Shown: positions 9,582 to 13,246 of the stretch, in pieces
Numbering within the stretch: position 1 is the first letter of the stretch
Layout of the letters: each line of letters opens with the position of its first letter
Origin: Streptomyces sp. ITFR-21
Lineage (GTDB): Bacteria; Actinomycetota; Actinomycetes; Streptomycetales; Streptomycetaceae
Direction of reading: 5' to 3'
DNA length: 64,000 bases
Assembly (NCBI RefSeq): GCF_031844685.1
Contig: NZ_CP134605.1
Location: forward strand, 620,001-684,000
Translations under genes and position numbers: made by a program
The notes under the pieces: model-generated
Told to the model about the DNA's origin: nothing
Databases searched by the model: none
What the model saw: only the letters and a program-made list of their open reading frames with translations

Positions 9582-10475
9582 TCAGGACACGATGTCCTTG
9601 GTGCGGAAGCCGCGGAAGGCGAGCGCGGTGAGCACCACCGCGTACGAGACCGAGACCGAGGCGCCCTGGACCATCCCGGTCCACTCCACGGTCGGCTGGA
9701 TGGCGTCCAGCCAGGAGAACTGCCAGTGCGCGGGCAGCACGTCGCGCCACGAACCGAGCGCGGTCACCGCGTCCAGCACGTTGCCGACGATGGTCAGCCC
9801 GACCGCGCCACCGACCGCGCCCAGCGGTGCGTCGGTGATGGTGGACAGCCAGAACGCCAGCGCCGCGGTGACCAGCTGGCCGACGAAGACATACGCCACC
9901 GCGACCGCCAGCCGGGGCAGCGCGCCGCCCGATCCCAGCGCCCCGCCGGCCGGCAGTTCCAGATCGCCCCAGCCGTACGCCACGGTGCCGGCCGCCAGCG
10001 CCACGGCCGGCAGCAGCACCAGGGCGACCGCGCTGAAGCCGAGCGCCACGGTCAGCTTGACCGCCAGCAGCCGGGCCCGCGGCACCGGCGCCGCCAGCAG
10101 GTAACGCAGGCTGGACCAGCCGGCCTCCGAGGCCACGGTGTCCCCGCAGAACAGCGCCACCGGCACCACCAGGACGAAGCCCGCCGAGACGAACAGGCAG
10201 GTGGCGGCGAAGTTAACGCCCGAGGCGGTGGCGGTGTCGATCAGTGTCGGGCCGGCCGCGCCGCTGTCGTGCGGGGTGCCGCCGATCGCGAAGGCCGCCA
10301 TCAGGATGAACGGCAGCGCGGCGAGCAGTACGCCGACGATGATCGTGCGGCGCCTGCGCAGCTGGCGGCGGGCCTCCACGCGCAGCCGCAGGGTGCGGCC
10401 GGGCCGGTAGCCGGGCGCGGTGGCGGCGGGCGGCGCGGCGGGGCCGGGCGCGGGTACGGGGGTGGCGGCGCTCAT
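9582..10475 (-). CDS. ABC-2 type transporter permease
   Basis: 297 residues with a Pro/Ala-rich cytoplasmic N-terminus, a basic segment (RRQLRRRRT) and about six predicted membrane helices (residues about 45-65, 90-115, 145-170, 195-215, 225-245 and 270-288). The start overlaps the stop of the upstream ATPase gene by ATGA (10472-10475), so the two are coupled and should form one exporter. The permease resembles the YhgE/ABC-2 group. No substrate can be inferred; the unusual partner suggests a link between extracellular hydrolysis and export. Confidence 0.82.
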   Translation of the reverse strand: MSAATPVPAPGPAAPPAATAPGYRPGRTLRLRVEARRQLRRRRTIIVGVLLAALPFILMAAFAIGGTPHDSGAAGPTLIDTATASGVNFAATCLFVSAGFVLVVPVALFCGDTVASEAGWSSLRYLLAAPVPRARLLAVKLTVALGFSAVALVLLPAVALAAGTVAYGWGDLELPAGGALGSGGALPRLAVAVAYVFVGQLVTAALAFWLSTITDAPLGAVGGAVGLTIVGNVLDAVTALGSWRDVLPAHWQFSWLDAIQPTVEWTGMVQGASVSVSYAVVLTALAFRGFRTKDIVS

Positions 10476-13246
10476 GCCGAGCCTCCGATCAGGGTCAGGA
10501 AGGCGTCCTCCAGGCGGCGGTGCGGGCCGATCCGGTCCACCGGCACCTCCAACCGGACGAGTTCGGCCACCAGCTGCGGCGCGGTCATCCCGTCGAGCAC
10601 CGCGAGCAGCCCGTCGTCCTCACGGACCGCCCCGGCCACGCCGGGCAGCGCGGCCACCTGGTCCACCACCAGCTGCGAGACCCCGCCGGCGACGCCGACC
10701 AGCACGGTGTCGGCGGAGCCGATGATCTCGGCGACCGGACCGGTACTGATCAGCCGGCCGCGGTCCATCACCACCAGATGCGTACAGGTCTGCTCGACCT
10801 CGGCCAGCAGGTGGCTGGAGACGATGACGGTACGGCCCGCGGCCGCGTACCGGATCAGCACCTCCCGCATCTCGCGGATCTGCGGCGGGTCCAGGCCGTT
10901 GGTGGGCTCGTCCAGGATCAGCAGGTCGGGCAGCCCGAGCATGGCCTGGGCGATGGCGAGCCGCTGCCGCATGCCCTGCGAGTACGTGCGCACCGCGCGG
11001 CCGAGCGCGTCGCCGAGCCCGGCGATCTCCAGTGCCCGCGCCAGGTGCGCGTCCTGCGCGGGCCGCCCGGTGGCCTGCCAGTACAGGTCGAGGTTGGCAC
11101 GGCCGGTCAGGTGCGGGAGGAACCCGGCGCCCTCCACGAACGCGCCGACCCGGGAGAGCACCGGCGCGCCCGGCCGGACCGCCTCGCCGAAGATCCTGAT
11201 CTCGCCCTCGTCGGGCCGGATCAGGCCCATCAGCATCCGCAGGGTGGTGGTCTTGCCGGCGCCGTTGGGGCCGAGCAGGCCGAGCACCTGGCCGGGCTCG
11301 ACCCGGAAGGACAGCTCGCGCACGGCGTAGCGGTCGGCGGACTTGGCGTACCGCTTGCTGAGCCCGGAGATCACCAGCGGCACCGCCGCCAGCGCCGGGT
11401 CGGCGGGCCGCGGCCGGGCCCGGCGGCGGCCGGTGAGCAGCAGCGCCGCCGCGATCAGCAGCGCGAGCGGCGGCAGCGCCCAGACCCACCAAAGCAGCGG
11501 GGGCGTGGCGGCGCTGAGCCCGGTGTCGGTGGGCAGGGTCAGCCGGGGGTCGGCGAGCGCGACGGACAGGGCCGCGGGCGCGGCCGGGGAGGCGTAGCCG
11601 AGGTCGGTGGTGGACAGCACCAGGCGCAGCCGGTGTCCGGCGGCGAACCGGTGGTCCACCGCGGCGAGGTGGACGCGTACGGCGGTGCCCTCGGCCGAAC
11701 CGGCGATCCGCACCGGGGCGGCGAGCCGGGCCGGCAGCGTCTGGGCGCCGTCCGGGCCCACGTCGTAGAGCTTGGCGAAGAGCACCGCGTCGGGGGCGGT
11801 GGTGGCGACCTTCACCGTGACGGAGGGCGCCCCGGTGAGGGTGACGGCGTGCGTGAGCCGGTCCGACTGGAACGCCGCGAACTGGCCGGGGTAGTCGACG
11901 GACAGCCCCGCGCCGAGGTCGGCGAGCCCGCTGAGGGCGCCGGCGCCCGGTACCGCGGAGATCGCGGGCGGCGCGCCGCCCGGCGGGTTGCCGATCCGCT
12001 GCTCGGGCCCGGCCAGCGGGATCCGCTCCGCCGCGGTGCCGTCGAGTCCCGGGTAGCCGCCGCCGGTCGCGCCGCGCAGCACCACGCTGCCGTCGGTGGA
12101 GTTCAGGCCGCCGGTGCGGGTGACACGGAAGGCCGGTCCGGTACCGGTGCCGGTGTCGCCCTTGAGGTAGTGGTCGAACCACGCGGTGACCCGGCGGTCG
12201 ATCCGGGCGTCCTCGGTGTCGCCGCCGTCGTGGCCGCCGGCGATCCAGTCCACCGCCACCGGAGCGCCGTTGGCCCTGATCGCCTTCGCCATCGCGTCGG
12301 ACTGGGCGAGGGTGAACAGCGAGTCCGTCTGGCCCTGGACGATCAGCGCGGGCACCTTGATCCGGGCGGCGACCGCGGCGGGGCTGAGCGCCGCAAGCCG
12401 GTCGCGGGCGGCGGCGTCGGGCCGCCCGGCCTGGGCGACCCGCTGGTAGAGGGCGCAGACGGCCGGCTCGAACCGGCCGCACAGCGGGTCGCCCGCGGCG
12501 GCGGGCGGCGGGGTGCCGGCGGCCGGACCGGTGCCGGTGCCGGTGCCGGTGTTCGCGGCGGGCGGCGCCGCGGGGGTCGCCGGCGCGGCGCCGCCGTCCG
12601 CGCCCTCTCCGGCGGTCCGGCCGGTGGGCGGCGCGGCGGCACCGGTGAAGAAGATGCCGGCCCACAGCTTCTTGTAGACGTCGTCCGGGAAGAGCGCGTC
12701 GGCCAGGTTCCAGTACGTCTCCCGGGGCGCTATGGCGTCCACCCGGTGGTCGTAGCCGGCCGCGAGCAGCGAGACCGCGCCGCCGTAGGAGATACCGGAG
12801 ACGCCCACCCGCGGGTCGCCGGGGGCGTCGAGGCGCACCTCGGGACGGGTGGCGAGCCAGTCGATCAGCTTGCTGACGTCGGCCACCTCGCCCCCGGGGG
12901 CGTTGAGTCCGATCCGGCCGCCGGAGTGACCGAAACCACGGGCGGTCCAGGTCAGGACGGCGTAGCCGTGCCGGGCGAGGTCCTCGGCCTGGCCGCGTTC
13001 GTCGTCCTTGCTGCCGCCGAAGCCGTGGCCGAGCAGCACCGCGGGCCTGCGGCCGGTGCCGCCGGCGGTGAAGTAGGAGGTGTCCAGGCGCACTCCGCCG
13101 GCGCCGGTGAGCACGGCGTCGCCGCGGTGCACGGCCGGCCCGCCCGCGGCGGTCGCGCTGCCGACCGCGGCCGAGCCCGCGGCCAGCAGCGCGAGCGCCG
13201 CCGCCCCGGCCAACCACCGCTTGCGCCGCGGCCATCGAAGATCCAT
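10472..13246 (-). CDS. Fusion protein: extracytoplasmic S15-like alpha/beta hydrolase, membrane helix, ABC ATPase
   Basis: 924 residues. Residues 8-33 are a membrane anchor or signal. About 40-580 are an X-Pro dipeptidyl-peptidase/S15-like hydrolase with nucleophile GISYGG, acid VQGQTDS and histidine AGGHDGG, plus the C-terminal jelly-roll part of that family. A hydrophobic helix follows near 590-612, then a basic stretch. About 640-924 are an ABC ATPase with GPNGAGKTT (Walker A), YSQGMRQ (signature), LLILDEPT (Walker B) and SSHLL (switch). The topology therefore puts the hydrolase outside and the ATPase inside. The gene looks leaderless: TAGGAT ends six bases before ATG 13246. The permease gene follows with a 4-base overlap. 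Similar fusions occur in other streptomycetes; function is unknown. Confidence 0.85.
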   Translation of the reverse strand: MDLRWPRRKRWLAGAAALALLAAGSAAVGSATAAGGPAVHRGDAVLTGAGGVRLDTSYFTAGGTGRRPAVLLGHGFGGSKDDERGQAEDLARHGYAVLTWTARGFGHSGGRIGLNAPGGEVADVSKLIDWLATRPEVRLDAPGDPRVGVSGISYGGAVSLLAAGYDHRVDAIAPRETYWNLADALFPDDVYKKLWAGIFFTGAAAPPTGRTAGEGADGGAAPATPAAPPAANTGTGTGTGPAAGTPPPAAAGDPLCGRFEPAVCALYQRVAQAGRPDAAARDRLAALSPAAVAARIKVPALIVQGQTDSLFTLAQSDAMAKAIRANGAPVAVDWIAGGHDGGDTEDARIDRRVTAWFDHYLKGDTGTGTGPAFRVTRTGGLNSTDGSVVLRGATGGGYPGLDGTAAERIPLAGPEQRIGNPPGGAPPAISAVPGAGALSGLADLGAGLSVDYPGQFAAFQSDRLTHAVTLTGAPSVTVKVATTAPDAVLFAKLYDVGPDGAQTLPARLAAPVRIAGSAEGTAVRVHLAAVDHRFAAGHRLRLVLSTTDLGYASPAAPAALSVALADPRLTLPTDTGLSAATPPLLWWVWALPPLALLIAAALLLTGRRRARPRPADPALAAVPLVISGLSKRYAKSADRYAVRELSFRVEPGQVLGLLGPNGAGKTTTLRMLMGLIRPDEGEIRIFGEAVRPGAPVLSRVGAFVEGAGFLPHLTGRANLDLYWQATGRPAQDAHLARALEIAGLGDALGRAVRTYSQGMRQRLAIAQAMLGLPDLLILDEPTNGLDPPQIREMREVLIRYAAAGRTVIVSSHLLAEVEQTCTHLVVMDRGRLISTGPVAEIIGSADTVLVGVAGGVSQLVVDQVAALPGVAGAVREDDGLLAVLDGMTAPQLVAELVRLEVPVDRIGPHRRLEDAFLTLIGGSA

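Follow-up and report, generated by a model that had tools for sequence, protein, structure and literature searches.

The DNA analysed here (the window) is a stretch of 64,000 nucleotides from Streptomyces sp. ITFR-21 (contig NZ_CP134605.1, positions 620,001 to 684,000). On its reverse strand lies a gene in which a hydrolase, a transmembrane helix and an ATP-binding cassette (ABC) ATPase are joined in one protein, followed directly by a permease gene. The two genes form a conserved ABC-2 (type V) transporter which carries an S15/CocE-type serine hydrolase on its ATPase subunit, attached through one helix. The features of the pair, all on the reverse strand, are as follows.

10472..13246, reverse: hydrolase - transmembrane helix - ABC ATPase fusion, 924 residues (frame, Pfam, alignment)
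13148..13213, reverse: N-terminal hydrophobic signal/anchor helix, residues 12-33 (hydropathy, model)
12107..13135, reverse: S15/CocE-type alpha/beta hydrolase domain, about residues 38-380 (profiles, model, structure comparison)
12788..12790, reverse: codon of the presumed catalytic Ser153, within GISYGG (invariant 81/81, 26/26)
12491..12631, reverse: variable Ala/Pro/Gly-rich loop in the hydrolase, residues 206-252 (alignment; model confidence mostly low)
12455..12481, reverse: cysteine pair C256/C264 (C-x2-F-x4-C), likely a disulfide (34 fusions)
12323..12325, reverse: codon of the presumed catalytic Asp308 (invariant 81/81, 26/26)
12230..12232, reverse: codon of the presumed catalytic His339 (invariant 81/81, 26/26)
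11513..12106, reverse: PepX_C-like jelly-roll domain, about residues 381-578 (Pfam, model, structure comparison)
11429..11491, reverse: transmembrane helix, residues 586-606, then GRRRARPRP (sequence, hydropathy, model)
10712..11380, reverse: ABC ATPase (nucleotide-binding domain), about residues 623-845 (Pfam, alignment, structure comparison)
10484..10711, reverse: C-terminal extension of the ATPase, residues 846-921 (model; NosF alignments extend to residue 923-924)
9582..10475, reverse: ABC-2 (type V) permease, 297 residues, its start overlapping the fusion stop by 4 bp (Pfam, model, structure comparison)

The first-pass annotation, made from the letters alone, had described a single protein consisting of an S15-like hydrolase with its triad, a transmembrane helix and a complete ABC ATPase, coupled to a permease gene, and had named an intervening stop or start, or a hydrolase facing the cytoplasm, as findings that would overturn it. 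No stop is found within the 924 residues, the layout is one on which Pfam and hydropathy agree, and the triad and the overlapping permease frame are both in place. The same parts were recovered in an AlphaFold2 model of the fusion built from 27 sequences (mean predicted local distance difference test, pLDDT, 82.8; predicted template modelling score, pTM, 0.59), in which the placement of the domains relative to each other is unreliable because the pTM is low. Two separate proteins are ruled out by the open frame as far as stops are concerned, and an internal start is unlikely. In the ATPase-proximal stretch upstream, some ATG, GTG or TTG occurs in 95 of 101 fusions (ATG in 17), and a start behind a 4-base Shine-Dalgarno-like word in only 14, at scattered positions; a conserved separate ATPase start is therefore improbable. 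A sequencing or assembly artefact was ruled out because the fusion recurs across many genomes. Two further long open frames lie over the fusion (10520-13561, forward, and 10620-14564, reverse); in this very G+C-rich genome they are probably shadow frames.

By sequence, the hydrolase half is a member of the S15 / CocE-NonD family. Peptidase_S15 (residues 51-327, 68.9 bits, cut-off 23), PepX_C (residues 455-554, 50.8 bits, cut-off 22.5) and CocE_NonD TIGR00976 (97.2 bits, cut-off 66.3) all score above their curated cut-offs, and a Ser-Asp-His triad is present. S153, D308 and H339 are invariant in all 81 close sequences aligned (window included) and in 26/26 diverse fusions, and the triad motifs were found in each of 34 fusions compared; catalysis is therefore under selection. 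In the structure comparison the hydrolase model matched the lipase PaL (Z 34.0, root-mean-square deviation 3.1, 447 aligned residues, 26% identity), which is also the top match by sequence, and further cocaine esterase (Z 28.0) and X-prolyl dipeptidyl aminopeptidase (Z 26.9). The profile-delimited domain contains exactly two cysteines in 34/34 fusions, with C-x2-F-x4-C spacing in 32; among the diverse fusions C264 is invariant and C256 is kept in 25 of 26. The pattern is not special to the fusion, since 14 of 32 standalone hydrolase relatives share it.

The ATPase half was detected by the Pfam ABC_tran model (residues 643-783, 107.1 bits, cut-off 25). Walker A, the signature YSQGM, D779/E780 and H812 are invariant in 81/81 close sequences, I777 is kept in 80, and K665, S756, E780 and H812 are kept in 26/26 diverse fusions. 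Judged from these residues the motif set is complete (Walker A, Walker B, signature and H-loop), as an ABC-2 / type V exporter requires. The nearest solved structures are tied: ABCA4 (Z 29.1), one of the ABCA lipid exporters, TM0544 (28.6) and NosF (28.3). The best NCBIfam matches are drug and lantibiotic exporters, all far under their cut-offs (DrrA 167.8 vs 312.45).

The permease matches PF12730 with 34.2 bits (cut-off 27), and by our reading its model contains about six membrane helices. Its closest structures are NosY (Z 17.6) and ABCG2 (Z 16.7); the best Foldseek E-value is only 1.6e-3, and the type V assignment is therefore based on the fold together with Pfam. No NCBIfam model matched at E <= 0.01. 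Type V exporters have a six-helix ABC-2 permease encoded separately within the operon, as is the case here, and permease and ATPase together point to a likely type V exporter. A permease start codon overlapping the fusion stop by 4 bp is possible in 76 of 79 loci, and in two later sets (20 + 7) the permease adjoins the fusion in 27/27 cases.

Hydropathy peaks of the window fusion lie at residues 12-30/15-33 and 588-606. The N-terminal stretch is above threshold in 70/81 close sequences and 22/26 diverse fusions, the helix ahead of the ATPase in 73/81 and 26/26, and R607, just behind that helix, is invariant in 27 aligned rows. A lipobox-like LGAC was found at the N terminus of one fusion (L108), and in three others (L117, L118, L109) A-x-A closes the hydrophobic N-terminal stretch; start codons of the compared fusions were picked by script, and we take these motifs to be lipobox-like and export-signal motifs. 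Taken together, the signal-type N termini, the lipobox-like motif, the paired cysteines and the arginines that follow the helix place the hydrolase outside and the ATPase inside, as a well-supported prediction. The first-pass picture of an outside enzyme joined to an inside motor thus holds for the physical join, which is conserved through one helix, while the outside position is a prediction from these features. Coupling of hydrolysis to export, or sensing by the hydrolase, which that annotation also suggested, would be candidate roles.

The fusion is widespread. A scan with one genome per species returned at least 551 relatives, of which the best 80 were examined. Being top matches, these lean towards full-length fusions: the full-length fusion was present at all 80 loci and the permease came next on the same strand at 79; at the remaining locus (L058) the contig ends 162 bases past the fusion. 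A search of 31 genomes of relatives found the fusion in 18, namely in 17 of 19 from the genus of the window (its own genome included) and in one from another family of the order. The two misses within the genus are a 71% complete genome and a 99% complete one (G018). Three of these 18 fusions (L095-L097) were domain-searched and the remainder judged on frame length and match. Sampling across the class gave at least 22 carriers among 118 genomes, spread over 11 families (16 and the window's own domain-searched, five judged on frame length and match only), and a phylum sample gave at least 8 among 119, of which the five outside the class were domain-searched. Both counts are lower bounds, since matches had to reach E <= 1e-15 and only 10-11 candidate places per genome were scored. 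Recurrence across the phylum excludes chance. Carriers outside Streptomycetaceae include Tsukamurella tyrosinosolvens, in which an 'alpha/beta fold hydrolase' is annotated beside an 'ABC transporter permease', Nonomuraea gerenzanensis, and a locus titled Streptosporangium nondiastaticum (L024). A Nonomuraea copy (L139, 3817-6723) has about 100 additional low-complexity residues between transmembrane helix and ATPase. The pair is also carried by two small genomes, 1.3-1.4 Mb in size and 99% complete (L117, 5877-9190; L118, 4485-7801).

Phylogenies of both halves point to a common origin. The hydrolase tree, with 34 fused and 32 separate domains (66 in all), has every fused domain on one side of one branch, requiring one change; its support by the Shimodaira-Hasegawa-like approximate likelihood ratio test (SH-aLRT), 94, lies just below the program's mark of 95. 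The fused domains likewise form one clade in a 49-domain ATPase tree (SH-aLRT 97), which is the weaker tree because only 15 of its rows are unfused and several sit on long branches. Neither tree contains an unfused member nested inside the fused clade, and for this reason a single old fusion suits the data and would be the simplest reading. Both trees were built with a fast procedure, and their unfused rows consist of whatever the searches returned. A split ancestor, with a hydrolase gene beside separate ATPase and permease genes, was not found among the 32 standalone loci, several of which are cut by contig ends: no permease occurs in the stretches fetched (0/32), and an ATPase frame in four (L091, L134, L135, L145) scores 60-80 bits, against at least 289 in fusions. 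The window genome's best-matching unfused ATPase (L082, 1567-3625) is followed by a permease relative (120 bits) and is possibly a cousin without hydrolase.

The gene neighbourhood survey suggested by the first-pass annotation bore out the permease (79 of the 80 best loci) and turned up no further conserved partner in the flanks examined. Of the neighbour clusters the first 40 were examined, and most are shadow reading frames. Response-regulator-like frames were seen by eye in 4 of 30 loci compared, at differing distances. No shared theme emerges from ten flanking frames in L117, L108 and L109 (arginase, decarboxylase, UPF0182, glycerophosphate oxidase-like and others); L117 has arginase and a copper monooxygenase-like gene as neighbours, and the frames of L118 are equal in length. 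In the window a subtilase-like peptidase gene (7996-9507, reverse; PF00082, 3.6e-7) lies 74 bp downstream of the permease on the same strand. Its product is presumably a secreted sedolisin, and the gene is not among the clusters shared by the 30 loci. Further away lie a gene for a glycosyl hydrolase of family 18 with a carbohydrate-binding domain (5981-7828, reverse) and one for an alpha-1,3-glucanase (14700-17774, forward; CatAgl D1 and D2) with two F5/8 type C domains and Thr/Pro-rich linkers.

The nearest architecture in print is that of TagGH. Passages of PMC11466899 describe this type V teichoic acid exporter, in which a single transmembrane helix links the ATPase with an extracellular domain; a helix-tethered outside domain on the ATPase and a separate permease are thus common to both systems, and those passages do not describe the TagGH outside domain as an enzyme. 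In the fusion the ATPase comes last. TagH presumably runs ATPase, helix, outside domain, which is the reverse order and sets the fusion apart from the TagGH type. NosDFY is near in structure: NosY is the nearest solved permease match, and NosF is one of the closest to the ATPase, with an alignment that takes in the C-terminal extension. NosD is, we assume, a separate protein and NosF has no fused hydrolase; a separate NosD-like protein was not recognised among the flanking frames scanned, which cover part of the flanks. PaL lipase (8yzn/8yzo), cocaine esterase, alpha-amino acid ester hydrolase and X-prolyl dipeptidyl aminopeptidase share the hydrolase and jelly-roll fold, but unlike the fusion these solved enzymes, going by chain lengths and presumably in general, have no transmembrane helix and ABC ATPase. 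C39 peptidase transporters such as SunT, described in other passages of the same paper (PMC11466899), also unite hydrolase and transporter in one chain, with peptidase, transmembrane domain and ATPase. No C39 profile was among the Pfam matches of the window fusion or six others, and the permease of the fusion is a separate gene. The C39 peptidase presumably faces the cytoplasm, unlike the hydrolase of the fusion, which is predicted to lie outside. FtsEX-EnvC resembles the fusion in having an ATPase inside and hydrolases under control outside, but is made of separate proteins and is, in excerpts of the literature, assigned to another ABC type (type VII). No description of this fusion, nor of any ABC ATPase with an N-terminal enzyme at its outside end, was found in the open-licence literature searched, whose coverage is limited and partial and proves no absence; the portions of PMC7794033 available do not describe it either. 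Among the matches listed from a viral structure library there were only generic ABC and hydrolase ones.

The favoured explanation, ahead of ATP-driven control of the hydrolase and then of detoxification at the surface, is processing during export: the tethered hydrolase may act at the outer face on a compound exported by the type V pump. It is held tentatively, as something short of probable. The transporter would consist of two fusion chains and two permeases, with the ATPases inside and two hydrolases outside over the pump exit. The cargo would be a small molecule, acylated or peptidyl and probably lipid-like, exported at the expense of ATP; on its emergence the hydrolase would cut an ester or amide bond in it, which would complete or inactivate the molecule and so make export one-way. 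The join of hydrolase and ATPase has been kept, which suggests that place matters and that the enzyme is wanted at the pump. A lipid-like or acylated substrate is hinted at by the lipase-like hydrolase and by the likeness of the pump to ABCA and ABCG proteins, although a common fold is no evidence of function.

Several observations weigh against export processing. The ABC-2 fold is no proof of export, and NosFY, which includes the nearest solved permease match, is presumed to act on an outside partner protein. S15-like enzymes include esterases, lipases, acylases and peptidases, and the cleaved bond is not fixed by the family. At the threshold used, the N-terminal helix is missing in 11/81 close sequences and the middle helix in 8/81, and a marginal additional hydrophobic stretch appears in 3/81 and in L104, L105 and L113. 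Some complete genomes also lack the pair (G018, and G119 of the window's family), so it is not essential to the group. No conserved partner or biosynthetic gene beyond the permease was found in 30 loci (few-kb flanks, clusters of at least 3 loci).

Transmembrane control, with little or no transport, is a somewhat unlikely alternative. The ATP cycle would pull or gate the outside hydrolase via helix and permease, much as FtsEX governs cell-wall amidases; FtsEX-EnvC is described as working that way in the portion of PMC12505981 available. The link is covalent in every fusion found, and the permease is closest to NosY and the ATPase near NosF among others. Both Nos proteins are presumed to act on an outside partner. 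However, in the fusion model pLDDT is only 65-75 in the transmembrane helix and 49 just behind it, which puts both with the less certain regions. This, like the extra residues between helix and ATPase in L139, fits a flexible tether more readily than a rigid lever. The broader proposal of a phylum-wide class of ABC machines, in which ATP turnover inside directly switches the covalently attached hydrolase outside, a single chain taking on the work divided between FtsEX and its amidases, and which would serve general envelope or lipid maintenance in actinobacteria, is rather doubtful.

Self-defence, in which the pump would eject a noxious compound (antibiotic or antimicrobial peptide) and the hydrolase destroy it at the surface, is unlikely. 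The sub-threshold resemblance of the ATPase to drug and lantibiotic exporters and the frequency of the fusion in streptomycetes are consistent with it, but retention in the 1.3-1.4 Mb genomes and a likely single old origin suit a more general role, and no resistance or biosynthetic gene set was recognised in the flanks scanned. Sensing or uptake, with the outside domain binding or cutting an external compound whose product is taken up or reported inside, agrees with the predicted outside position and with the few response-regulator-like frames; it is very improbable, since no conserved kinase or regulator was found in the loci compared, ABC-2 systems are mostly exporters and pure sensing need not keep the triad. 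Mere anchoring of the hydrolase by an otherwise unrelated ATPase, to which the existence of standalone relatives lends some colour, is very improbable, as every unfused hydrolase in the tree falls outside the fused clade, and the fusions have retained ATPase motifs and permease as well as the triad.

The fusion is a small system, seemingly ancient and retained in many genomes, in which an enzyme is joined covalently through the membrane to an ABC motor; the only annotated copy met, in T. tyrosinosolvens, is named just 'alpha/beta fold hydrolase'. If the two activities are coupled, the pair would be a two-gene system for measuring how ATP use on one side of a membrane drives or controls chemistry on the other, and would point to a substrate pathway in streptomycetes and their relatives.

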